Shown here piece by piece: positions 1 to 18,028 of a stretch of 23,735 nucleotides of DNA. Origin of the DNA: a virus; the IMG/VR virus record IMGVR_UViG_3300037117_000083, positions 1 to 23,735 of that record. The stretch is one strand, 5' to 3'. A model generated the notes under the pieces. It was not told the origin of the DNA. It did not search any database and worked only from the letters and a program-made list of their open reading frames with translations. How positions within the stretch are numbered: the first letter of the stretch is position 1; the number at the start of each line of letters is the position of its first letter. Position numbers and translations under genes: made by a program.

Positions 1-669
1 GGCCGAAGCCTGCTCTCGCTTTCCAGGGAGTTCGGGCACCAAAGAACGATAATCAAAGGCTGGATCGAGCGAATAGGCGGGACTGTCCGCAATCGCAGCG
101 AAGCTATGTATGTGCGGATGGAGAATACTCCTTCCGAGGAAAGACAGGCGCTCGCGCGCGCCGCTCATGACGCTGTTCGCGGCGTCAAGCGCACTGATGG
201 TGAGCTGCGAAAAAGGGCTCTGGCGAAAAGCCGGCTCATCGGGCATGGCGAGCCCGAACTTCTTGAAGCTCTTGGCATCCAAAAACTTCCTACCGAAGCT
301 CAAAGGCCTTGCGGGAAATACAACATCGATATCGCCGTTGGCGATTGCATCGCCGTGGAACTCGTCACCCAAGGAAACTTGCGAAAAGCGCATCTCTGCG
401 AGCGCCACAAATATCTCCGCGATCAGGGGTATTGCACCATCAACATCACCTTTCAGTTTGACCGCGTCGATTGCGTGATCGGCAACCTCGATGACGTAGT
501 CGCCTTCATCAAGCGAGCCTATCGGTCGCCATCCATCCGGCGTAAGGATTGGGTGATTTGGTGTCGATCCGAGCGTTTTTCCAGAGTCCGTAACAATCTC
601 GGCCAATTGACCGCTGTAAAAGTGCCGGAACGCTTTTTCAACATTCGTCGCGAAATCGATCCTGGTTGA
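1..669 (+). CDS. HTH plus Vsr-like (PD-(D/E)XK-type) homing endonuclease, encoded antisense inside the intein (5' end off window)
   Basis: The frame is open from position 1 to the TGA at 667-669 (222 residues). The true start is left of the window; the first internal ATG is at 106 but the protein clearly extends upstream of it. Residues 1-38 look like a helix-turn-helix (LSREFGHQRTIIKGWIERIG) running into RNRSEAMYVRM. A helical linker NTPSEERQALARAAHDAVRG follows. The nuclease-like core has a Glu in GEPELLEAL, an Asp in YNIDIAV (codon 328-330), a Glu in IAVELV (358-360), and His and Arg residues in RKAHLCERHKYLRDQGY. The C-terminal part has DWVIWCRSERFSRVRNNLGQ. From recall, phage HTH-nuclease proteins related to Vsr and to the EDxHD homing endonucleases have this layout. 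The stop lies 9 bp inside the intein's first codon on the other strand. Codons on the two strands are directly opposed. Family assignment is from motifs only. Confidence 0.7.
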   Translation, partial: GRSLLSLSREFGHQRTIIKGWIERIGGTVRNRSEAMYVRMENTPSEERQALARAAHDAVRGVKRTDGELRKRALAKSRLIGHGEPELLEALGIQKLPTEAQRPCGKYNIDIAVGDCIAVELVTQGNLRKAHLCERHKYLRDQGYCTINITFQFDRVDCVIGNLDDVVAFIKRAYRSPSIRRKDWVIWCRSERFSRVRNNLGQLTAVKVPERFFNIRREIDPG

Positions 670-681
670 AGCAGGAAAGCA
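1..681 (-). mobile_element. Class 1-type intein (Hint domain), N-terminal part, in the MuF gene
   Basis: Seen in sequence: intein residue 1 is Cys (codon 681-679), followed by FPASTRID (block A-like). A block B motif GSTPNHPILTPDGW follows, with Thr40 and His43 in the usual TxxH positions, then GSLDEGDYVIEV. This is a canonical Hint N-terminal half, and Cys1 makes it class 1-like. At least 227 residues of intein lie in the window; the C-terminal splice block is beyond position 1. After about residue 65 the translation does not look like a LAGLIDADG or HNH domain. The matching DNA instead encodes an endonuclease on the other strand. GC is visibly lower from about position 700 leftwards than in the N-extein DNA, consistent with acquisition. 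A non-splicing Hint domain cannot be excluded without the C-terminal half. Confidence 0.85.
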
Positions 682-1479
682 ATTTATTAACTCGCCAGGA
701 AAAATGAATCGCCGCACCTTCGGGTCCGGGTCGAACCAGCCCTTCGATGTGTCGTACCGCTTGCCGTCGTTGGCGAGGTGCGTCGGCCGCGGCACCCGGC
801 CGCCGTGGCTGTGCAGCCAGACCGCCTCCTTGATGCCGAGCTCGACCTGCCGAACCCTGGTCATGGACGCGGTGGCCTTGTTGTTCTGGTCCCGCGCGAT
901 CAGCGCTGCCCGGCGCCTGGTGACGCCATATTGCTTCTCGATCTCTTTGGCGAGCGGCGCCAGGTCGCGCCCGGCGGCCACGCTGCGCATGACTGCGCCC
1001 TGAACGTTGACGAGGTACTGCTGCGGGATCGACTTGATGAGGCCGACCTGCTCGGCGATCGTCGCCTTCATGACGTCCTTCATGGCCGGCGTCATCTTGA
1101 ACCGCACCGAGAACCCGCCCTTGCGCAGTATCTGGCGCAGGACCGCGTCGGACCGCTTGTGGGCGGCGAGCGCGAAGTACTTGGCGAGCTCGTTGGCGGC
1201 CTCATCGAAGTTCCGCTTCCACTGGCGCGTGAGCTTGTTGATGGCGATGCGCAGCTGCGAGGCGGCGCTGCTCTCGTCCATCGCCATCGTGGCCGTCGCC
1301 GGCGGGTGGGCCCGGTATGCGGCCTTGATCCAGTAGAGGAACGAGTCGTTCATCTCCTCGATGAGCCGCCGCAGGCGCCGGCGGTAGGCGGCCTCGATCC
1401 CGCAGTTCGGGTGGACCGGGCGAAGGATGATGTCCTTCTGCCCGGCCCGCGTGATGCCGGATGATGCTCTCAGTCCCAT
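1..1479 (-). CDS. MuF / SPP1 gp7-type head morphogenesis protein, interrupted by an intein (partial, runs off left edge)
   Basis: This is a minor head protein of the MuF/SPP1 gp7 family, which acts with the portal during procapsid assembly and stays in the virion. The frame is open from ATG 1479 to the window edge (493 codons seen, no stop). The ATG overlaps the end of the upstream gene by 10 bp. Residues 1-266 are the N-extein: a long helical part, then the family's C-terminal signature with GVTRRRAALIARDQ, a W..H....RVPRPTHLANDGK segment and FPGELINC. In this family the last motif normally continues as CRC, a Cys pair thought to bind metal. Here the first Cys (C267, codon 681-679) is followed by an intein N-terminal domain instead. 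The intein end and the C-extein lie outside the window. A head protein is expected next to the portal, as found here. Confidence 0.85.
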   Translation of the reverse strand, partial: MGLRASSGITRAGQKDIILRPVHPNCGIEAAYRRRLRRLIEEMNDSFLYWIKAAYRAHPPATATMAMDESSAASQLRIAINKLTRQWKRNFDEAANELAKYFALAAHKRSDAVLRQILRKGGFSVRFKMTPAMKDVMKATIAEQVGLIKSIPQQYLVNVQGAVMRSVAAGRDLAPLAKEIEKQYGVTRRRAALIARDQNNKATASMTRVRQVELGIKEAVWLHSHGGRVPRPTHLANDGKRYDTSKGWFDPDPKVRRFIFPGELINCFPASTRIDFATNVEKAFRHFYSGQLAEIVTDSGKTLGSTPNHPILTPDGWRPIGSLDEGDYVIEVADHAIDAVKLKGDVDGAIPLIAEIFVALAEMRFSQVSLGDEFHGDAIANGDIDVVFPARPLSFGRKFLDAKSFKKFGLAMPDEPAFRQSPFSQLTISALDAANSVMSGARERLSFLGRSILHPHIHSFAAIADSPAYSLDPAFDYRSLVPELPGKREQASA

Positions 1480-2913: not shown

Positions 2914-3246
2914 TCATGCTGCACTCCCGAGCAGGTTCTCCACCTTCGACCATGTCTCGTCGCCGACGATGCCGTCGACCATGAGCCCGTTTTTCTTCTG
3001 GAACGCAGCCACGCGGTCCTTGGTGGCCTGCGAGTACTCGAGCATGGCCTGGGCCGATGCGATCGCGGTCGCCGATGCCACGGTCGGATCGGCGCCGGCT
3101 GGCGCGGACTTCATCACCGTCTGCAGGATGCGGAAGATGTCGGGCGAGAGGCGCAGCACTGTGTCGAGCCCGCCCATCTTGGCGACGATGTCTTCGATGT
3201 CAGCGCGGTTGTTGACCAGGACGTCGAACGCGGTTCCGATGCTCAT
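2914..3246 (-). CDS. Small phage protein with a peptidoglycan-binding-like C-terminus
   Basis: 110 aa. The start ATG at 3246 overlaps the portal stop by 4 bp (ATGA), so the two are probably translationally coupled. Residues 1-70 are helical with an Ala-rich stretch. Residues about 75-108 (TKDRVAAFQKKNGLMVDGIV then GDETWSKVENLLG) match the repeat seen in PG_binding_1 domains: V..FQ...GL..DGIVG..TW. No signal peptide is seen. In a portal-adjacent virion gene this domain could contact the cell wall during infection, or be a reused structural fold. The domain call is fairly firm and the role is inferred. Confidence 0.7.
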   Translation of the reverse strand: MSIGTAFDVLVNNRADIEDIVAKMGGLDTVLRLSPDIFRILQTVMKSAPAGADPTVASATAIASAQAMLEYSQATKDRVAAFQKKNGLMVDGIVGDETWSKVENLLGSAA

Positions 3247-6200
3247 TCCGGTTTCTCCTGCAAGAGTTCATCGCCGCTGCTCTTGGGCAGCCTCGCCTGG
3301 CGCGCGGCTTCGATCTTGGCGGCGCGCTCGGCATAGGCCTTGTCGCGCTCGGCCTTTTGCTCGGGCGTGAGCGGCGCGTCTTTGAAGAGGTCGCGGTGGT
3401 GGGATGGCGGCCGCGTGAGTCCATACTGGGGCATCGTGAAGGTCTGCCGCTCGCCGGGCGCGCCGCCGCCTTCGCTCTCGGGCTTGCGCTTGAGGAATCC
3501 AGGCAGCTCCGGCATGTCGGTCTTCTTGGCGCCGCCGGCCTTCCCGCCGGTCGCCCCACCCTTTCCGAACTTGCCATCGGGGCGCCGCGGGTGGTCGCCC
3601 TCTTCCCAGAACCCGAGCGCGCCTTCGTCCATGGCGATCCCGAAGCGCCCGGCGATGTCATGCTTCCTGGCCACCAGCTTGTCGGCCAGCGCCTTGTCGC
3701 CGCCGCCGGCGAGCACGGTGTCGCGCACGTCCTCGTCGGGGATCTCGGTCACGCGCTGCGCCGAATCGCGCAGCTGCTCCTCGGTCATCGACCCGAACAC
3801 GCGCGCCGAGTCGCGGTTCATGTTCTTGTCGCGCAGCGTGTTGATCTCTCCCACCTGGTTGCCGAAGTGAGCGCCCTTGGGCGCGCCCTGCGCCCGGTAG
3901 GAGAGCGCGCCGCCCATGTCGAGCGGGGTGGCCTTGCCGGCGACGACGCCGAGGTTTTCGCCGCCGAGCCCGACCGCATCCCAGTTCGCGAGCCAGGCGT
4001 GGGCCACGAAATCGGCCTGCGCGGCCTTGATCTCCGCCGGCGAGAGCTTGCTGGCGTTGTCCTTGTCGAGCTTGGCCATCTCGGTCGCGATGTGGCCGCC
4101 GCCCTTGACCGGCCGGTAGTTGAGCGTGGGCGCGCCGGCGAGGTCGTAGAGGCTGGCCGCGATCAGTTCGTTCTTCACATGGTCGGGGCTCTTGCCCTTC
4201 TTGACGTAGTACTTCTTGCCGTCCGGGGCCGCGTAGACGCCCCCCGGGTTCGAGCCCATCTGGGCCCCGACCTTCGTGAGCCTCGCCGGGTCGAGCTCGC
4301 TGGCGGGCTCCGCTGGCCCGGCATGGGCCTTCCCGGAGGCGCCCGAGCCGGAGCCGAACTTCCCGTCCGGCGCCCGCGGATGATCAGCCTCCTGGAACTC
4401 GGCGTCAGCCGCCTGTCCCGAAGTCGTAATCGGCGAACGGGTCCTCGTCCCGGCCGCCTGATCTTGAAAAGGGATGACGTTGCTGTCGCCACCTCCCGGG
4501 GCGGCGGCCTTGTCTGGTGATTCGCCCAGGCCCGGGCCGGCCTCGCCGAGCGGCTGCGGGCGGCCGCCCTCCGGCTCGAGGCCCGCCTCCTCCTCCTCGC
4601 GCAGGTCGGGCACGTCCTCCGGATCGAGGTCGCCGTAGGGGAGCTTGGGATCGGCGATGGCGATGCCGCGCACCTCGGCCGGGGCGATCGCGCCCATGTC
4701 GACGTAGATCTGGTGGCGCTCACCGTCCATCTTCTGGAGCTCGGCCTCCTCCTTCTTGCTCATCTCCCACAGCGGCTCGAAGTCGAAGATGATCTCCTCG
4801 TCGACCCTGCCGAAGAGCGAGAGCTGCTGGAAGTTGACGACGCGGGTGAGGTTGGGCCGCATGAAGCGGTTCTGGTAGGCGGTGATCGTGTCGTAGTAGG
4901 CGCGCATGGTCCCGTCGGTCGAGGCGTTGAGCCCGCTCGGGTTGATGCCCGTGAACTTGATGTCGGGGATGCGGACCACGCTCATCATGTGCTCCTGCGC
5001 CTGCGCCTGCAGCTCGTGGAGCCCCGAGAGCGACGCGCTCACGTTCTTGAAGTCCTCGGTCGCCTTGTTGAGGACGAACGTGCCCTGGTTGTCGCGCAGC
5101 GCGTTGAACATGGCCACGCGCAAGAGCACGCCCTCGGGGCCGCCGCCTGACTGGAGGATGGTCTGCATGTCGGTCATGAGCACCATGACCGAGAACGAGT
5201 GGATCAGCGCCCCGACGCTCTCGCGGGTCGTGAGCCAGATGTCGACGTAGGGCTTGGCCATCTGCGAGAGCGAGAGGCCGCCGAAGGAGAACGCGGGCTT
5301 GAGCAGGTCGGGGACGACGTGGCCGATGAAGGTCGGCAGCCGCGAGAGGTGCAGCTGCTTGCCCATGACGTACCAGACCTGGGGATTGTACCAGTCGTAC
5401 TTGAGCGGGTTCTGAGCGTTGTAGGTGGTCGGGTAGCTCCACGCGGCCTCGATCGGCTTGACGGACTCGAACGAGCCCTTCTTGACCTTGCTGGCGCTGA
5501 TCTTGTCGCGGCCGTTGCCGACCGACGTCATGAGCTCCTTGTCGCCGGCGCCGTCGAGGTCGACCCCGAAGTTGAGGAACAGATGGGAGCGGCCGAAGAA
5601 GCCGTCGTCGCGGCAGATCGTGTACATGTGGTCGCGCAGCTCGAGCCGCGCCTGGTCGTCGTGCAGCTCCTTGATCATGTCGGACTTGCCGGCCTTCTTG
5701 ACGCGGTCCTCGCGGCGCCCCTTGCGCTCGTCGGCGCTCACCGGCTTGCCGCGCAGCGCCGCCTGGTCCTCGTCCTCCTTCTCCTTCCTGCGGTCCTCGT
5801 CGGCCTCGCCGCCGCTCACGTCGAAGTCGATCCACTTGCGGGTGGCGTCGTCGGCGATGGTCTCGGAGATGACGCGGTACTCGGGGCGCAGCGCGAGCTC
5901 GGAGAGGAACGGGTAGCCCAGGAACTGGAGGCCCTCGGCGCTGATGCTGCCGATCACGTCCCCGGCCCACTGGTTGCTCGCCCAGGAGATGCCCTCGTCC
6001 ATCGCCATCTGGAGGTCCTTGGGCGGCATGGCCTTCGGCGGGAACTGCGGCAGCCTGAAGGGGTCGAACTCGGGCCCGCGGTTCTTGGCGCGCGCGAGCG
6101 CCTTGCTCTGCTCGATGAAGCGCAGCGCCTGGCGGATGCCGATGGCGACCTTGGGCGCCTTTGGCTCGGCCGCGACCTTGTCCGCCGGCGCGGCGTCCTC

Positions 6201-6383
6201 GGCGGGCTTCGCCCCGATCGCGACGCCGGCCGCGATCATCTCCTGGCGCTTGCGCTGGATGGCGTCGATCGGCCGCCCGCTGATCATGGCCACGGCCTCA
6301 TCGGTGCCGCCGGCGGTGATCGCCGCCAGCTCGGCCTTGCTCCACCGGCCGGCTCCAGGCCGGGCCCCGCCATGCTTGCCCAT
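3243..6383 (-). CDS. Portal protein (DUF1073-like) with a C-terminal kinase-like domain
   Basis: 1046 aa, about twice the usual portal length. Residues 1-30 carry GGARPGAGRWSK, a signature more often seen at small-terminase N-termini. Residues about 110-590 are the portal body: RPEYRVISETIADDATRKW is the typical DUF1073 entry motif, and NGMNASTD-like and ITAYQNRFMRPNLTRVVNF segments follow. The portal forms the DNA-entry ring at the head vertex and docks the terminase. After an acidic Pro/Gly linker come two copies of a DHPRxPDGKFGxG motif (residues about 680 and 935) that flank a domain of about 200 residues. That domain has GGVYAAPDGKKYYVKKGKS (a beta3-Lys-like site), HVKNELIAA (an alphaC-Glu-like site), NWDAVGLGGENLG (a catalytic-loop-like site) and TPLDMGGAL (a metal-Asp-like site). 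This resembles HipA/PI-kinase-type folds. The C-terminus has MPQYGLTRPP and a charged helix. The portal call is strong and the kinase-like call moderate. Confidence 0.82.
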   Translation of the reverse strand: MGKHGGARPGAGRWSKAELAAITAGGTDEAVAMISGRPIDAIQRKRQEMIAAGVAIGAKPAEDAAPADKVAAEPKAPKVAIGIRQALRFIEQSKALARAKNRGPEFDPFRLPQFPPKAMPPKDLQMAMDEGISWASNQWAGDVIGSISAEGLQFLGYPFLSELALRPEYRVISETIADDATRKWIDFDVSGGEADEDRRKEKEDEDQAALRGKPVSADERKGRREDRVKKAGKSDMIKELHDDQARLELRDHMYTICRDDGFFGRSHLFLNFGVDLDGAGDKELMTSVGNGRDKISASKVKKGSFESVKPIEAAWSYPTTYNAQNPLKYDWYNPQVWYVMGKQLHLSRLPTFIGHVVPDLLKPAFSFGGLSLSQMAKPYVDIWLTTRESVGALIHSFSVMVLMTDMQTILQSGGGPEGVLLRVAMFNALRDNQGTFVLNKATEDFKNVSASLSGLHELQAQAQEHMMSVVRIPDIKFTGINPSGLNASTDGTMRAYYDTITAYQNRFMRPNLTRVVNFQQLSLFGRVDEEIIFDFEPLWEMSKKEEAELQKMDGERHQIYVDMGAIAPAEVRGIAIADPKLPYGDLDPEDVPDLREEEEAGLEPEGGRPQPLGEAGPGLGESPDKAAAPGGGDSNVIPFQDQAAGTRTRSPITTSGQAADAEFQEADHPRAPDGKFGSGSGASGKAHAGPAEPASELDPARLTKVGAQMGSNPGGVYAAPDGKKYYVKKGKSPDHVKNELIAASLYDLAGAPTLNYRPVKGGGHIATEMAKLDKDNASKLSPAEIKAAQADFVAHAWLANWDAVGLGGENLGVVAGKATPLDMGGALSYRAQGAPKGAHFGNQVGEINTLRDKNMNRDSARVFGSMTEEQLRDSAQRVTEIPDEDVRDTVLAGGGDKALADKLVARKHDIAGRFGIAMDEGALGFWEEGDHPRRPDGKFGKGGATGGKAGGAKKTDMPELPGFLKRKPESEGGGAPGERQTFTMPQYGLTRPPSHHRDLFKDAPLTPEQKAERDKAYAERAAKIEAARQARLPKSSGDELLQEKPE

Positions 6384-8361: not shown

Positions 8362-8961
8362 TCAAGAGCGCGCAAAATGCGCCCTGGACATCTTTGCTCG
8401 CGTTTCTGGCGAATGCCGTCGCCCCGTCCAAGATTTATTACCCATATGCGCCGCAGATAGCTTGGCCCGGGTTTCAGCTGACGGGAATTTCCCCGAATGA
8501 GCTATGCTTAATTTTTTCTGAACCTCCGGAGTGGCCAGCGTGGCGGAAATTTTTGCTTTTTGCTCAGCTGACATTGGGCCGCGGCGAAGTGCAGCTTCTC
8601 TATATACAGCAATGGCTTCCGGTGTGTTGCGCTGAGCTTTCAATCTAGCCCGTGCTTCTAGCGACCATTTCACGCCAGCACGAGTACCGGCAATCCTGGC
8701 AGCGTTATATTTCGGCTTCAAAATATCGATAGCGCGTTGCTCGAAGAATATAAGTTCAGAACCAGAGCAAATTAAAAGAACTGAGAACGAAATACCGACA
8801 TCGTATTTGCGCCAAGCGGCTTGGAGACCCGGGCAGTGATGCTCTCCTCTTTTGAGCATCGTTCGATGTTTTCCCCACCGCTTGGGAATATTCAAAGAAC
8901 TGCCGATGTACCGATGTCCGCTTGGCGCCGTTATTGCGTAAATTCCGCTCTTGATCTGCAT
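8362..8961 (-). CDS. GIY-YIG endonuclease with NUMOD3-type repeats (free-standing homing endonuclease-like)
   Basis: 199 aa. GIYAIT at residues 6-11 and HRYIGSS at about 16-22 are the GIY and YIG halves of the nuclease. An Arg in NIPKRWGKHR and a Glu in FFEQRAID match the expected catalytic region. The C-terminal half carries three short repeats of the NUMOD3 type (SAEQKAKIS, SAETRAKLSAAHMG and SPETRAKMSRAH), used by such enzymes for DNA contacts. Phage Seg-like enzymes have this layout and spread by cutting homologous alleles. The ATG at 8961 overlaps the upstream TAA. The gene is noticeably poorer in GC than its neighbours, in line with recent insertion. It lies just upstream of pth2. Confidence 0.88.
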   Translation of the reverse strand: MQIKSGIYAITAPSGHRYIGSSLNIPKRWGKHRTMLKRGEHHCPGLQAAWRKYDVGISFSVLLICSGSELIFFEQRAIDILKPKYNAARIAGTRAGVKWSLEARARLKAQRNTPEAIAVYREAALRRGPMSAEQKAKISATLATPEVQKKLSIAHSGKFPSAETRAKLSAAHMGNKSWTGRRHSPETRAKMSRAHFARS

Positions 8962-12544: not shown

Positions 12545-15500
12545 TCAACGCCGCGGCTGGTGCCCTCTCTTGATGATCGTCGCCACCATGTCGGGCGTGA
12601 TCACCATGGCAGTCGCGCCCTTGGCGAGCCGCATCACGGCGGCGTCGGCCAGGTTCGGGCTCTTCATGCCGTTCGGCTTCTTGTTTATGAGGATCTTGCC
12701 GGCGCCGTTGATGCTGTAGGTCGGCTGGCTGAGCTCGGAGACGAGGGCGAGGTAGTGCGGGCACGAGCTGCTGATCGAGACGATCTCGTCGGGGTTGCAG
12801 CGCACGCCGTCGGTGACCCACTTGAAGGTCTTCTGCACGCGCCGGCGCAGCGACCACCAGGCCTGCGCCTTGCGGTTGGCGAAGTAGTCCTGGTTGGTGC
12901 GCCCGGCGTCGCCGTCCGAGCCGATCGTGCCCTCGACGGTGCCCTCGGGGTCGAGGACGCCGTCGGAACCGCGGAAGATGTCGACCTGCAGGGCACGCAC
13001 CCCGCTGGCCACGCGCTGCTGGTTGATCATGCGGGCGTCGCCGCGCACGCCGGCGCCCAACCCGTCGCCGTCGTAGCGGAATCCCGGGTAGCCGAGATCG
13101 TCGCAGACCTTGAAGGCGCTCTGCGTGGTGGCATAGAGGTCGGCGCCCTTGCCGCTCCACTGGTCGAGGTAGTCGACCTCGATGCCGGTGGTGCCACAGA
13201 GCGCGTTCTTGTCGACGCCCTCGTCGGCCACGTCGAGCGCGAGGCCCTTGGCGCCGGTCTTCGCGATGCCGAGCTTCTGGCGGGCATCGACGCAGGCGCG
13301 TATCCAGGCGCCCGGGATGACGATGCCGTGGACCGACGCCGAGTAGTCGCGGTCGACCTCCTGGGCGATGGTGACCGGGTCGAGGCCCTTGCCGCCCTCG
13401 TCCTCGCCGGCGCCGAGCAGGCGGTACCACTCATCGTCTTTTCTCGGGTCGCTATTGTGTGTGACGATGCAGTCGTCCGTCAGGTAGAGGCCATCGCTGG
13501 CCTGGACCTTGAGGCATTGGCATTCCTTGATGCCGACAATCTCAATCCCGGTGATGCTGCGCCTGACTGGATACTTGGCTGCCGGCTTGAAGGCTTGCGC
13601 CTTTCTCGTCAAACGGAAAGGAACGACGCCATCAGGCAGCCGAATGCTGACCAAGTATGATTCGCGGACCTTGCAGATGCGGCCGCCCGGGAACATGCGG
13701 GTCGCGGGCTGCTTGATCTTATGCAACTTCGCCGTCCCTCCCAGCGAACGAGCGACGAACATGACGTCTTCGGCCAACCGCAGGGATGTCGTCGCATGAC
13801 GCGCCGCACCTGGATCAGTTCTGGAGACCGACCCATCCGTGTCCAAAAGGCCCCGCAACAAGTCGACCCGATCATCGATCGACGATGCGGTCTTGTAAAT
13901 CTCCGGAATGAATTTCGTGTGAGACTCGCTGCCGCTAAGGCCCAGGGACCGAATTGCCGCATTGACCGGATTGTGAAGCCCGCGCCCCTTGGGGCCGCCG
14001 CGACGAGATGCATCTGCGGCCACGCGGTACTGGATGCCGCGCACCCACTTCATGATGCATCCGCTCGGGAGCCTTTCATTGACATGGTCGATGATCTCCG
14101 CGTCGCCGACCGTCAAATAATGCGCGGTATTCGATTTGGTCGGCAAGCTGCCGTCGCCCAACAGGCAGCCGAGAACATAAGGATGAAGAGGCAAATCGAT
14201 GACCGTGAACGAAACCGGTTGAGTCATCGGCACCTGATATCGATGAGTGCGAAATCCGCGGACATCTTTCCGGATGTAGTCTTTCATGATCTCCGAAAGC
14301 GGCAGCGTATGGCGAATGTGCCGCCTCGATGCCCGCTGATCGCCGGCCTTCACCACGGTCCACAAATGATCGGCACACGTCTCTGTGCTGGCCCCGTCGC
14401 TGAATGTAACGCGATGCACCTCTTTTTTCCCTTGCGGGAAAACGCCGACGACTTTCGTTGGCTTTCCATTCGCACCGAAGATCGAATCGCCCGTGCTGAT
14501 CTGACCCATCAAGCGCCATCCCGTCGGGGTCAAGATTTTTGCGTCGAGCGGCTGAGCCCGCCAGTCGAACACGAAAACGTCGATCTTGCCCTCGTGGCGC
14601 TTCTTGGCGAACGGGTTGTTCATGCCGTTGACGCTGCTCATGTCGATGCGGCAGTTGGTGGTCTGCGAGAGCGACATGTCGATGAGCTCTGGGCGCTCGA
14701 GGTGGGCGGAGTTATGAGTCACGATGAAGTTGTCTGTCAGATATAGCCCATCTGGAGCGCCGACCGTGATGCATCGGACCGGTTTCCTGCCAATGTGTTC
14801 CACTGAGACAATAGTTCTCGTCAGCGGATGCTTGCGCGGCTTTAACTTTTCCAGCTTCCGCCGCAACCGGAATGGGACCATCCCGGCGGGGAGCGCGATC
14901 TGGATCGCATACTGATCTCGGTGTCCGCGCCGGTCAGGCTTGACGTTGAGATATGCGAGGCCACCGAGGGATTGCACCAGAAATCGGACATCGGCTGCAA
15001 GCCGCACCGATGATGTGAAGAAAGCAGCGTATCCATCTGAAGCTGAGCCATCTGTATCCATCAATCCCTGCAGCAAGCTGAGACGATCCGAGGTCTTCGC
15101 CAGCTTATAACGGTCTGGCACCAATTTGCCGGGACCAGTCGAGCCTGCGATGCCTGCTGCGATCACAGCCAGTTTGGCTCTGCTCATCGGATATGCGCCG
15201 CCAGCCACTCGGCCCCGCCGCCCAAGAGCGTCGACGATATTGTAAGTATATCTCCCATCGAACGCTCCGATGATCACGCCCTTGGGCAACAAGCAGCGCA
15301 CATTCTCGATGATCTCCTTGTCTGCTGAAGTCACGCGCACGGTGCCGCTATTCAAAGCTCCGTCTCCGAGCAGAACGCCAACGATATAAGGGTCCAGAGG
15401 AAGTTCTTCCGCGTAGGCTGGCCGAGATGGCCTAAACTCCACGGGCTCGCAAACTGGAATGCGATAACGATATTGAATCTGTCCTCCTGGGGATTCGTAA

Positions 15501-16366
15501 GAGAGCCTATCAATGAGCTCATGCGTTCGTAGCGTCATCTTTTTCCGAGGGAACCCCAACACATGCTCGACTGTCCAGAGATGATTCGAGCTGCATTCCG
15601 TGCTGGTTCCGTCTCGGAAAGTTACTCGGAAGACATCATGAACGCCACATTCGTTGACATGAGTCACTCGCCGCGAATGACCATCTCTTCCGATTACCCA
15701 GGAGCCGGGCCGCATGTCGGCCATCTCGCTTAAGCCGAATGGAGTGACAATCTTGGCATCCAACGGCTGTGCCTCGTCCACAAGGTAGATCGCCTCGCGG
15801 TCGCCGCGGCCGATCTGGTCGCCGGCCTCGCCGGTGAGGAGCGAGTCGGTGTCGGGGAACCGCAGCCGCATGAACGGCGCGTCGCGCCACTCGACCCACC
15901 CGGCGCGGAACTCCTCCGGCAGGTGCTTCATGAACATGCGCGCCTTTGGCAGCAGCGGCTTCATGGTGCCGATCTTGTCGACCAGGTCCTCCTTGCGCGA
16001 GCCGCAGCCCACGGCCATGCCGTCGTAGAGGATGCAGAGCGTGCAGGCGGTCGCCATCGCGAGCCAGGAGATGCCCATGTCGCGGGACTTCTCGCAGAGG
16101 CCGGGCGTCTGCGAGCGCCAGTGCTTGATGAGCCACTCGACCCACTCGCGCTGGCGGTCGAAGAGGATGAACGGGACGAGGGTGGGCAGGTTGCGCTCGA
16201 CGTTGCGCGGGTCCCAGGTCACGCCCCAGTCGTTGATGAAGTCGGCGACGTGCTCGCGGTAGTAGGCCCTGAGCTCCGGCAGGCATCCCGGGTTCTCGCG
16301 GATGGCCGCGAGCGCGGCGAGGCGGCCCTTGAGGACGTCGGAGTAGTTCGGGTTCTTCCAATCCAT
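12545..16366 (-). CDS. Terminase large subunit precursor with two inteins
   Basis: 1273 aa as translated and 551 aa after removal of both inteins, a normal TerL length. TerL pumps DNA into the head through the portal and cuts it. The start is ATG 16366, which overlaps the upstream stop (TGATG); the 45 codons open upstream are shadow. Exteins: residues 1-198 hold the ATPase N-part with CEKSRDMGISWLAM (a Walker A-like loop) and the Walker B EAIYLVDE. Residues 553-603 hold SAHLERPELIDMSLSQTTN, then MSSVNGMNNPFAKKRH (coupling motif) and FDWR. Residues 972-1273 continue with SDPRKDDEWY and the RNase H-like nuclease with Asp in ALDVADEGVD, YDGDGLGAG and NLADAAVM. Both inteins sit at conserved ATPase-region motifs, so splicing should be needed for packaging. 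Confidence 0.92.
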   Translation of the reverse strand: MDWKNPNYSDVLKGRLAALAAIRENPGCLPELRAYYREHVADFINDWGVTWDPRNVERNLPTLVPFILFDRQREWVEWLIKHWRSQTPGLCEKSRDMGISWLAMATACTLCILYDGMAVGCGSRKEDLVDKIGTMKPLLPKARMFMKHLPEEFRAGWVEWRDAPFMRLRFPDTDSLLTGEAGDQIGRGDREAIYLVDEAQPLDAKIVTPFGLSEMADMRPGSWVIGRDGHSRRVTHVNECGVHDVFRVTFRDGTSTECSSNHLWTVEHVLGFPRKKMTLRTHELIDRLSYESPGGQIQYRYRIPVCEPVEFRPSRPAYAEELPLDPYIVGVLLGDGALNSGTVRVTSADKEIIENVRCLLPKGVIIGAFDGRYTYNIVDALGRRGRVAGGAYPMSRAKLAVIAAGIAGSTGPGKLVPDRYKLAKTSDRLSLLQGLMDTDGSASDGYAAFFTSSVRLAADVRFLVQSLGGLAYLNVKPDRRGHRDQYAIQIALPAGMVPFRLRRKLEKLKPRKHPLTRTIVSVEHIGRKPVRCITVGAPDGLYLTDNFIVTHNSAHLERPELIDMSLSQTTNCRIDMSSVNGMNNPFAKKRHEGKIDVFVFDWRAQPLDAKILTPTGWRLMGQISTGDSIFGANGKPTKVVGVFPQGKKEVHRVTFSDGASTETCADHLWTVVKAGDQRASRRHIRHTLPLSEIMKDYIRKDVRGFRTHRYQVPMTQPVSFTVIDLPLHPYVLGCLLGDGSLPTKSNTAHYLTVGDAEIIDHVNERLPSGCIMKWVRGIQYRVAADASRRGGPKGRGLHNPVNAAIRSLGLSGSESHTKFIPEIYKTASSIDDRVDLLRGLLDTDGSVSRTDPGAARHATTSLRLAEDVMFVARSLGGTAKLHKIKQPATRMFPGGRICKVRESYLVSIRLPDGVVPFRLTRKAQAFKPAAKYPVRRSITGIEIVGIKECQCLKVQASDGLYLTDDCIVTHNSDPRKDDEWYRLLGAGEDEGGKGLDPVTIAQEVDRDYSASVHGIVIPGAWIRACVDARQKLGIAKTGAKGLALDVADEGVDKNALCGTTGIEVDYLDQWSGKGADLYATTQSAFKVCDDLGYPGFRYDGDGLGAGVRGDARMINQQRVASGVRALQVDIFRGSDGVLDPEGTVEGTIGSDGDAGRTNQDYFANRKAQAWWSLRRRVQKTFKWVTDGVRCNPDEIVSISSSCPHYLALVSELSQPTYSINGAGKILINKKPNGMKSPNLADAAVMRLAKGATAMVITPDMVATIIKRGHQPRR
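13454..14557 (-). mobile_element. TerL intein 2, class 3 type with LAGLIDADG endonuclease (368 aa)
   Basis: It is inserted between FDWR and SDPRKDD, 51 extein residues after intein 1. It starts AQPLDAKILTP and ends LYLTDDCIVTHN before Ser+1. The class 3 triplet is Trp66 (ADHLWTVV), Cys348 (ECQCLKVQ) and Thr366. The endonuclease motifs are PYVLGCLLGDGSL (Asp135) and LLRGLLDTDGSVS (Asp241). Its first eight residues are identical to intein 1, and block order and spacing match, so the two are paralogues. They have diverged widely between motifs, which argues against a very recent duplication. Confidence 0.9.
14711..15772 (-). mobile_element. TerL intein 1, class 3 type with LAGLIDADG endonuclease (354 aa)
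   Basis: It is inserted straight after the Walker B Asp-Glu, leaving VDE | SAHLERP. It begins with Ala (AQPLDAKIVTP) and not Cys or Ser. It has block B SSNHLWTVE with Trp66, a late Cys334 (PVRCITVG), and ends LYLTDNFIVTHN with Thr352 and His-Asn, followed by Ser+1. Ala1 with this Trp/Cys/Thr triplet is the hallmark of class 3 inteins. The endonuclease motifs PYIVGVLLGDGAL (Asp137) and LLQGLMDTDGSAS (Asp241) both keep their acids, so it may be active. The DNA is lower in GC than the exteins. The junctions were checked codon by codon. Confidence 0.9.
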
Positions 16367-17016
16367 CAATCGAGCGGCGCCGCAAGCTCCCCGGTCCCCG
16401 CCCGCTCGCGCCGGCGCTCGAGGACGGTGCGCAGCGCCTCCTGGATGAGGCGACTGGCGTCCTGCTTGAGGATGCCGGAGCGCCCGTAATAAGAATCCCA
16501 ATTATCGATCCGCGCATCGGCCTCCGCCATGACCTCGCGCGCGAGGCGCTCCTGGTGGACGGCCGCGCGCTCCTGGATGGTGGCGACGACCTTGGGCGAG
16601 ACGACGCCGACGGTGGCTGTGACGGGGAACGTGATCTGCTGTCGGTCCTCGGGGCCGCGCTCGACCCGGACGAATCCCTTGCCGGCCAGGGATCTGAGGA
16701 CCTGGCGTTCGGCCGACCTCATGACATGGCTCACGAATTCGTCGCCCCCTATGTCCGCCGCGGCGGTCATTACCTTCTGGACGATCGCGATGCGCTCCAT
16801 GGCCACCATCTCGGAGCACTCGGGGCACGGGTATTCGCGGAACTGCTGCTCGACCAGCGGCTCGATGGCGCCATTCGCCATCATCCCAAATGAGACCACT
16901 CTTCGGTACACGGCGAACCGCACGGTGCGGCAGCCTGCATCTTCGGGCTGGGCAATGCGCATGCTCGGTACCGCGCCACCACTTCTTTCCGACAAGAACT
17001 CTCGCTCGTCGACCAT
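16366..17016 (-). CDS. Phage protein preceding TerL, unknown function (216 aa)
   Basis: The start ATG 17016 overlaps the upstream stop (ATGA), and the end overlaps the TerL start. Residues about 60-70 have CPECSEM, half of a zinc knuckle. The middle is helical (RSAERQVLRSLAGKGFVRVE). The C-terminal part has a long charged helix, TIQERAAVHQERLAREVMAE, and ALRTVLERRRERAG. The helical, oligomer-like character and the place directly before TerL would suit a packaging factor. A separate small-terminase-like gene lies further upstream, so the role is open. Confidence 0.6.
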   Translation of the reverse strand: MVDEREFLSERSGGAVPSMRIAQPEDAGCRTVRFAVYRRVVSFGMMANGAIEPLVEQQFREYPCPECSEMVAMERIAIVQKVMTAAADIGGDEFVSHVMRSAERQVLRSLAGKGFVRVERGPEDRQQITFPVTATVGVVSPKVVATIQERAAVHQERLAREVMAEADARIDNWDSYYGRSGILKQDASRLIQEALRTVLERRRERAGTGELAAPLD

Positions 17017-17750
17017 CAGCCGGGCCTCAGGTCGGCCCTGATCTTCATCCACAGGATGCCGAGCATGTTCCGGCCTTGGCGCCCTGGGCCCCATCCCCAG
17101 AAGTCGTCGCGCCATGAGTCCTCGACGATCTCGCGGCAGCCGGTCTCGAGCAGCTTGCGGCGCACGTACTCGTGCTGCGAGGCCTTGGCGCGAAGGATCG
17201 CCTCCATGATGGTGGTGCGGAAATTCCCCCAGTCGGCACGCCGGTGTAAGTCCAGCTGCTCAGCGAGCTTGAATGCCTCGTGGGCCGAGATGGCGCTCTG
17301 GATGGCCAGGCGCGCGCCCTCGTGGCCGGGGAACTTCTCCCAGTGGTAGGCGTGCTCGGAGGTGTCGAAGCGCAGGCCGCGCCACTGGATCGAGAACGCC
17401 GAGAAGTTCGAGAGCGGGTAGAACTCGCGCTCGTAGATGAAGACCTGGGTGGCGCTGTTCGGCGGCGGCGCCGGCACGACGAGCCGCGCACGATCGAACT
17501 CGGCTGCGCCAGCCTCCGGTGGATCGAGTGGATCGAGGCGGTTAAAATGCTCGATCATGTCGGCCGTGACCATCATCGACCCAGGATGGTTGAAGAAATC
17601 GAGCCGGTAGAAGCCGTCGGCCAGCTCTGGCGCCCAGCGGATTTCGCCGCCTTGACCGAGATAGGATGCGCCCTCTGATGCCCAGCATTGGTGCTTGTTC
17701 TTGGGCGGCCTGACGAGCCGCACGCAATCGCCGACCTTGAATTCCGTCAT
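17016..17750 (-). CDS. NADAR-domain protein (YbiA-like) with an N-terminal SH3-like segment
   Basis: ATG 17750 has AGGAG 9 bp upstream and overlaps the preceding stop. Residues 1-65 (FKVGDCVRLVRPPKNKHQCW then DGFYRLDFFNHPGSMMVTAD) look like a small beta-barrel. Residues about 100-244 match NADAR: YEREFYPLSNFSAFSIQWRG, TSEHAYHWEKFPG, then NFRTTIMEAILRAKASQHE, IVEDSWRDDFWGWG and GRNMLGILWMKIR. NADAR proteins are N-glycosidases that act on nucleotide-derived or ADP-ribose-linked compounds. In phages they are thought to work in NAD or ADP-ribose metabolism, including conflict with host defences. The position inside the packaging block probably reflects an accessory insertion. Confidence 0.88.
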   Translation of the reverse strand: MTEFKVGDCVRLVRPPKNKHQCWASEGASYLGQGGEIRWAPELADGFYRLDFFNHPGSMMVTADMIEHFNRLDPLDPPEAGAAEFDRARLVVPAPPPNSATQVFIYEREFYPLSNFSAFSIQWRGLRFDTSEHAYHWEKFPGHEGARLAIQSAISAHEAFKLAEQLDLHRRADWGNFRTTIMEAILRAKASQHEYVRRKLLETGCREIVEDSWRDDFWGWGPGRQGRNMLGILWMKIRADLRPG

Positions 17751-18028
17751 TGCCTCAATCTCCTGCGCGAGAAATTTTCTCGTGGAGCGCATAATGCGCT
17801 CGCCACGTCGCGGCCAGCGCCGCCTCTTGTTTCGTCCAAAATCCTCGGGTCGTTGATGTCGATGACGTTCCCGTCCGTGATCGGCACGTCCCAGAGCCAC
17901 GAGAGCGCGGCCAGCACCGTGCGCTCGGCCCGCGGGCATGTGCAATGCGGCCTGTCGCGCCTGCACTCAGCCAAAAACTCCTGGCATTTCAATAGGTGTG
18001 CGCGAGCATTTTCCAGTTCGGACATCAT
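17747..18028 (-). CDS. Small phage protein sharing a 40-bp segment with the next gene upstream (93 aa)
   Basis: ATG 18028 overlaps the upstream stop, and the end overlaps the NADAR gene start (ATGA). Residues 1-35 are helical with CRRDRPHCTCPRAE, a Cys/His cluster. Residues about 48-60 are PITDGNVIDINDP, identical to a stretch in the small-terminase-like protein just upstream. The basic tail is unremarkable. The function is unknown. The shared peptide suggests a common binding partner or a local duplication. Confidence 0.55.
   Translation of the reverse strand: MMSELENARAHLLKCQEFLAECRRDRPHCTCPRAERTVLAALSWLWDVPITDGNVIDINDPRILDETRGGAGRDVASALCAPRENFSRRRLRQ

Follow-up and report, generated by a model that had tools for sequence, protein, structure and literature searches.

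Can a single stretch of phage DNA encode an intein on one strand and, codon against codon on the other, the homing endonuclease that would spread it? Intein endonucleases are normally fused in frame within the intein or are separately encoded, as in split-intein fractured genes. The question is raised by the first 681 bases of the window analyzed here, a whole virus record of 23,735 bases that terminates at base 1, which is a contig end.

Two opposed reading frames at the contig end

The minus-strand frame is open from position 1479 to the edge. Its first part (682 to 1479, minus strand) encodes a MuF head morphogenesis protein that is 50% identical to an uninterrupted Klebsiella MuF and matches the Pfam family Phage_Mu_F (1.8e-9). 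The protein then runs through GELIN/CFPASTRID to TPNHPILTPDGW, and from Cys267 it carries intein blocks A and B and matches Intein_splicing (2.1e-5), which bears out the claim of the first-pass annotation that an intein begins at this cysteine. The Cys1 codon lies at 679 to 681, and the N-terminal 227 codons of the intein are present in the window (1 to 681, minus strand). Block B, TPNHPILT (the TxxH motif), is encoded at 541 to 564 and is conserved among relatives.

The plus-strand frame is open from 1 to 669, ends with a TGA at 667 to 669, and has lost its 5' end at the contig edge. It is assigned as a homing-endonuclease-like gene (HEG) on the basis of the open frame, relatives in 113 phage records, and profile matches. 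A helix-turn-helix (HTH), LSREFGHQRTIIKGWIERIG, is encoded at 19 to 78 (plus strand), as indicated by the alignment, HTH Pfam matches in relatives, and helices in the structural model of the nuclease of a close relative, L003. The Vsr-fold nuclease core follows at 250 to 405 (plus strand) and is delimited by invariant or nearly invariant columns and by structural matches to Vsr and I-Bth0305I. Its core residues are E84 (250 to 252), Y107 and N108 (319 to 324), D110 (328 to 330), AVE118-120 (352 to 360), and R135 (403 to 405). The TGA is separated from the intein Cys codon by the 9 bp at 670 to 678, as the first-pass annotation had read it, and the codons on the two strands are exactly opposed in the window, an arrangement that recurs in relatives.

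Other antisense open reading frames in this GC-rich window reach 416 amino acids. Since long antisense frames are common here, the single sequence is weak evidence and the case depends on comparison; the far end of the element is readable only in relatives because the record stops at base 1.

Relatives and distribution

Searching with the plus-strand protein returned 10 close IMG/VR loci, and a profile search returned at least 221 loci, of which the best 80 were retained. Relatives occur in 113 to 119 phage records, including Edwardsiella phage MSW-3, Klebsiella phages KpTDp1 and RCIP0015, Gordonia phages Affeca and Vivi2, Aaphi23, and Jerseyvirus, Vibrio, Pantoea, Pseudomonas aeruginosa, and Idiomarinaceae phages. 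One relative was found in a Lachnoclostridium contig; among GTDB genome contigs there was no match with a single-protein query and one with an alignment query. In nearly all annotated records the relatives lie antisense to head/MuF genes and are themselves unannotated, a gap that persists even in Jerseyvirus and other well-sequenced phages and that probably reflects how annotation pipelines suppress antisense open reading frames.

We extracted 117 distinct complete intein/nuclease pairs, requiring Asn followed by Cys at the intein end. The antisense pairing, which the first-pass annotation had advised looking for in other phage MuF inteins, is found across phages, and the intein with an opposed nuclease frame is confirmed as real and as a member of a widespread class. 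Among 10 divergent exteins scanned, 8 matched Phage_Mu_F or Phage_min_cap2 and 2 had no match. When the intein alone was used as the query, a nuclease lay opposite in 80/80 of the best loci, so that no HEG-less relative appeared among them, with a query biased to full-length relatives. Likewise, no decayed HEG within an intact intein was found in a search that leaned to full-length relatives, though the homing cycle predicts some. Only 15 of 1060 records span 80% of the window's MuF-intein protein, and most MuF genes are without the element.

A sequencing artefact or chimera was ruled out by the isolates, which come from many laboratories and hosts. Stops in the plus-strand alignment were considered as signs of decayed HEGs and rejected, as none lies before the point at which the HEG truly ends. 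There was no stop inside the core of 73 extracted inteins, and both frames remain open in AT-rich members (36 to 45% GC). Two loci that may contain errors were put aside: L066, with one in-frame minus-strand stop, and L105, in which both frames are shifted. In L066 the lone stop interrupts an otherwise complete intein with an intact nuclease opposite, and may be a sequencing error, recoding, or a real loss.

Anatomy of the intein and the nuclease gene

The intein C-end that had been expected to the left lies beyond the contig edge in the window, but is present in relatives 265 to 350 codons from Cys1, where the intein runs to an Asn followed by CRC, CRS, or similar. All 117 inteins end in Asn followed by Cys, as the extraction required (the window stops before that point), and the preceding residue is His in 81, Ser in 29, Arg in 4, Lys in 2, and Gln in 1. 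The class 1 features Cys1 and block B TxxH are present in the window, and in alignments the Cys and His are invariant and the Thr is conserved in at least 90%. Joining the L003 exteins across the intein gives a gapless junction (PGELPN/CRCTW) against the uninterrupted Klebsiella MuF. The intein frame is contiguous in all extracted loci rather than split into two halves, and Intein_splicing, detected in 58/59, is the only recurrent Pfam family on this strand, with no in-frame endonuclease fusion.

On the opposite strand, the nuclease start codon is plus codon 21 from the intein end in 94/117 pairs (86 ATG and 8 GTG) and sits opposite the block F His of HVYNLE. The stop usually falls 2 to 7 codons inside Cys1.

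Opposite the last intein codons we observed either an extended -10 element, TGnTATAAT (mostly in inteins ending in His-Asn, HN), or TTGACA-N16-19-TATAAT (mostly in those ending in Ser-Asn, SN), followed by GGAGGTTATAAACATG or similar. With 300 synonymous recodings of the intein as the null, a promoter-like form was present in 44/97 representatives against 19.6 ± 3.1 expected (maximum 29 of 300), and a Shine-Dalgarno core of at least 4 bases in 51/97 against 20 (maximum 29). The thresholds were picked after the motif was seen, so this enrichment is supporting evidence and not proof of expression; at these thresholds 53/97 representatives have no good promoter-like match. In SN inteins the Ser codon TCA forms part of the TTGACA, and the penultimate Ser in place of His, as in L061, L080, and L091, seems tied to this opposite-strand motif. 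The demand for a promoter may therefore have changed the intein residue adjoining the catalytic Asn in these members.

Structure and nuclease family

The model of the L003 nuclease, built from 53 sequences, has a pLDDT of 94.5. VIA-align superimposes it on Vsr (1cw0; Z 11.3, rmsd 2.6, 111 residues) and on I-Bth0305I (3r3p; Z 9.8, rmsd 3.6, 94 residues), and the latter is also the top Foldseek match (E 1.8e-3, probability 1.00). The sequence profile of the plus-strand protein matches PDB 3r3p at 1.4e-4, and in relatives the Pfam family MTES_1575 is matched in 14/20 members (up to 1.9e-10) and HTH families up to 1e-11. These matches agree with the initial assignment of an HTH and a Vsr-like nuclease, which has to be amended in one respect: E, D, and a second E are conserved, but the full E, D, H, D set of EDxHD enzymes is not, as the His of GGxWH occurs in only part of the family and is absent from the clade of the window.

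In the model of the L003 intein, the Hint ends are predicted with high confidence (pLDDT of about 96), as is an extra subdomain at residues 81 to 132, whereas residues 134 to 230 are mostly below 60. The Foldseek list for this model is dominated by inteins.

Selection on each strand

With the codons in exact opposition, the first position of a plus codon pairs with the third of a minus codon and vice versa, which allows the strand that drives conservation to be read from the variable codon position. Phylogenetically disjoint pairs at 60 to 97% identity (n = 26) were compared, with the MuF extein as the control. The extein was minus-driven in 26/26 pairs, and the Hint N-end and the intein C-end were each minus-driven in 23/25. 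The middle of the intein, a linker zone opposite the HTH and helices, was plus-driven in 25/26 (p = 8e-7) and, over a wider identity range, in 47/48 independent pairs (p = 3.5e-13). The low-confidence stretch 134 to 230 of the intein model coincides with this zone. Comparison of the window with its six nearest relatives gave the same split, 6/6 in both zones, in comparisons that share the window and are not independent. The minus strand, to which the first-pass annotation had allowed that all conservation might be due, does not by itself explain it, and these substitution patterns indicate that both strands are under protein-level selection.

The Leu and Ser codons TTA, CTA, and TCA are stops on the opposite strand. 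In the exteins they make up 444/2824 of the Leu and Ser codons; the nuclease has 0/2830, and the part of the intein that the nuclease spans has 1/3548. Three loci with minus-strand stops (L022, L066, and L105) were left out of this count, so that the zero for the nuclease depends in part on this selection; plus-strand stops played no part in selecting the loci behind the intein figure.

Among 54 representatives below 60% identity, with codons numbered from the intein end in L003, most conserved nuclease residues have a free third position (G43, R57, E126, Y149, N150, D152, and R178). At codons 158 to 161, which are 12 bp at 349 to 360 of the window, both readings are fixed, third positions included, except for I/V on the plus strand: the plus strand reads (I/V)AVE, including the catalytic Glu, and the minus strand FHGD, with every residue on either strand except the I/V at least 93% conserved. 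FHGD, nearly invariant on the intein strand, falls in the confidently predicted accessory subdomain. This subdomain (residues 81 to 132, approximately) and the nuclease core overlap, and both strands constrain it. The unstructured middle of the intein probably arose as a side effect of coding for the nuclease and is tolerated.

A free-standing relative and probable mobility

Homologues of the nuclease outside any intein, which had been sought as a test of its independence, are present in Acinetobacter phage P1068, in IME285, and in L109. In P1068 and L109 the free-standing gene is convergent to an uninterrupted MuF gene. The P1068 copy has 9 to 12 stops in the opposite frame, and TTA, CTA, or TCA account for 12/39 Leu and Ser codons of the free-standing nuclease. 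A quick, provisional tree places the free-standing nuclease, with a long branch, within the antisense genes, a placement that suggests it escaped the overlap.

Empty insertion sites, without the intein, exist in MuF genes. The loci L118 and L125 share 51% identity in the HEG and 20% in MuF, whereas L041 and L067 share 75% in MuF and 38% in the HEG; these identities indicate that host gene and element have discordant histories, and that the discordance runs either way. Such discordance, together with the absence of the element from most MuF genes, fits a mobile element.

The MuF genes of Acinetobacter P1068 (L022, 2675 to 3457) and AB1 (L026, 1980 to 2762) appear almost the same as far as residue 205 or so and diverge around the intein site, beside the P1068 nuclease, as a co-conversion tract would leave them. 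An intein-like match beyond residue 267 of AB1 was rejected, as its MuF reads uninterrupted through IGCKCRK.

Interpretation and alternative explanations

The first-pass interpretation, namely, an intein, an HTH and Vsr-like nuclease, and codon-opposed nesting, is supported by this comparison. We consider it very probable that the element is a mobile intein in which the gene for the homing endonuclease is antisense to the intein coding sequence, the codons of the two being directly opposed. On the strand of the head operon it would be an in-frame insert in muF, whose Hint fold (approximately the first 66 and last 40 residues) would excise and rejoin MuF at N/CRC. On the other strand, the promoter-like element opposite the last intein codons would drive a separate HTH and Vsr-fold nuclease, translated from the ribosome-binding site and start opposite block F to a stop just inside intein codon 1. 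Where a co-infecting phage has a muF allele without the intein, this nuclease would cut it, and the complete intein/HEG unit would be copied into the cut gene during repair. Splicing, expression, site cleavage, and homing would here follow the precedents of Hint inteins and EDxHD homing endonucleases. A more demanding reading, which we find plausible but stop short of favoring, is a natural two-strand gene of about 250 to 300 codons in which two unrelated folded proteins, the Hint intein with its accessory subdomain and the Vsr-fold nuclease, rely on shared bases, AVE/FHGD is fixed for both at 12 bp, and promoter, ribosome-binding site, and start of one gene are accommodated in synonymous positions of the other. 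On that reading, the bases opposite the nuclease core would have acquired a function within the intein.

GC-rich genes often have long antisense frames, and codon-opposed frames mirror conservation, so the plus frame might be thought a passive reflection of a conserved intein from which no protein is made. This explanation is already refuted by the third-position variation on the plus strand in 47/48 pairs and by the homologue that exists without an antisense intein; the open frames of AT-rich members, the nuclease and HTH family matches, and the confident model (pLDDT 94.5) also speak against it, and we give it almost no credence. The converse, in which the nuclease lies antisense in a gene-breaking insert and the minus frame is open by mirroring after splicing was lost, would account for the mostly unstructured middle of the intein. 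It is nevertheless very improbable: conservation extends to Cys1, TxxH, the C-terminal Asn, and Cys+1, the minus strand drives the evolution of both splicing ends, TTA, CTA, and TCA are avoided on both strands, and the MuF exteins are open and intact on both flanks.

Proteins with an HTH and a Vsr fold can serve other roles, and a free-standing copy persists without an intein; the plus-strand product could thus be an expressed DNA-binding nuclease that attacks rival genomes or regulates late genes and does not mobilize the intein. We regard this as unlikely, though less so than the two preceding alternatives: the gene is always tied to a single gene family, at a single insertion site, even the free-standing copy adjoins an uninterrupted muF, the histories of element and host gene are discordant, and the nearest solved fold of known function is a homing endonuclease.

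Relation to known systems

The proposed mobile intein with an antisense nuclease gene resembles canonical bifunctional inteins (LAGLIDADG/HNH) in having a Hint domain with class 1 residues at a conserved site and a nuclease, presumed to act in homing, between blocks B and F. It differs in that the nuclease is a separate opposite-strand protein and not part of the intein polypeptide, and in that the overlap with the nuclease gene takes in the ends of the intein too. In the fractured genes of phages, Dassa et al. reportedly described in 2009 split inteins whose halves flank a Vsr-like endonuclease; these share a phage intein and a separately translated Vsr-like nuclease, but the present intein is contiguous and in cis, with the nuclease gene running across it in antisense. 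The family of EDxHD/Vsr-like homing endonucleases, including I-Bth0305I, has been described (PMC3943268). It has in common with the present nuclease the Vsr-type catalytic fold, HTH-type DNA-binding modules, and a phage setting, whereas here E, D, and E are conserved, the signature His is not family-wide, the host is an intein, and the gene is antisense. One of the antisense homing genes known from group I introns encodes I-DsqI of Didymium squamulosum, which cuts the intron-lacking site (PMC9548176). There too a homing gene lies opposite a splicing element, but that element is RNA, and no two proteins are codon-opposed across nearly the whole of it. A literature search found no antisense or overlapping endonuclease in inteins; earlier mention in the papers on fractured genes or I-Bth0305I is possible.

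The antisense arrangement, if true, would add to in-frame fusion and split genes a third means by which an intein carries a homing enzyme of its own. The compact overlap locks nuclease and intein together so that neither decays freely, which bears on the homing cycle. Sense/antisense coding has long been debated as an origin of protein families; with two unrelated proteins codon-opposed over nearly their full length, more than 100 natural variants, and a free-standing control, it becomes directly measurable.

Other genes of the window

A 1318-amino-acid open reading frame at 12548 to 16501 (minus strand) has a LAGLIDADG domain (9.1e-16), and the same phage fragment thus seems to carry a conventional in-frame element besides the antisense kind. 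The GIY-YIG and NUMOD3 protein encoded at 8365 to 8961 (minus strand) is probably a free-standing homing endonuclease, and thereby a third type of homing nuclease in 23.7 kb. The portal open reading frame at 3246 to 6383 (minus strand) encodes 1046 amino acids, with the Pfam portal match confined to residues 168 to 555, and a NADAR domain protein (3.5e-25) is encoded at 17019 to 17966 (minus strand).
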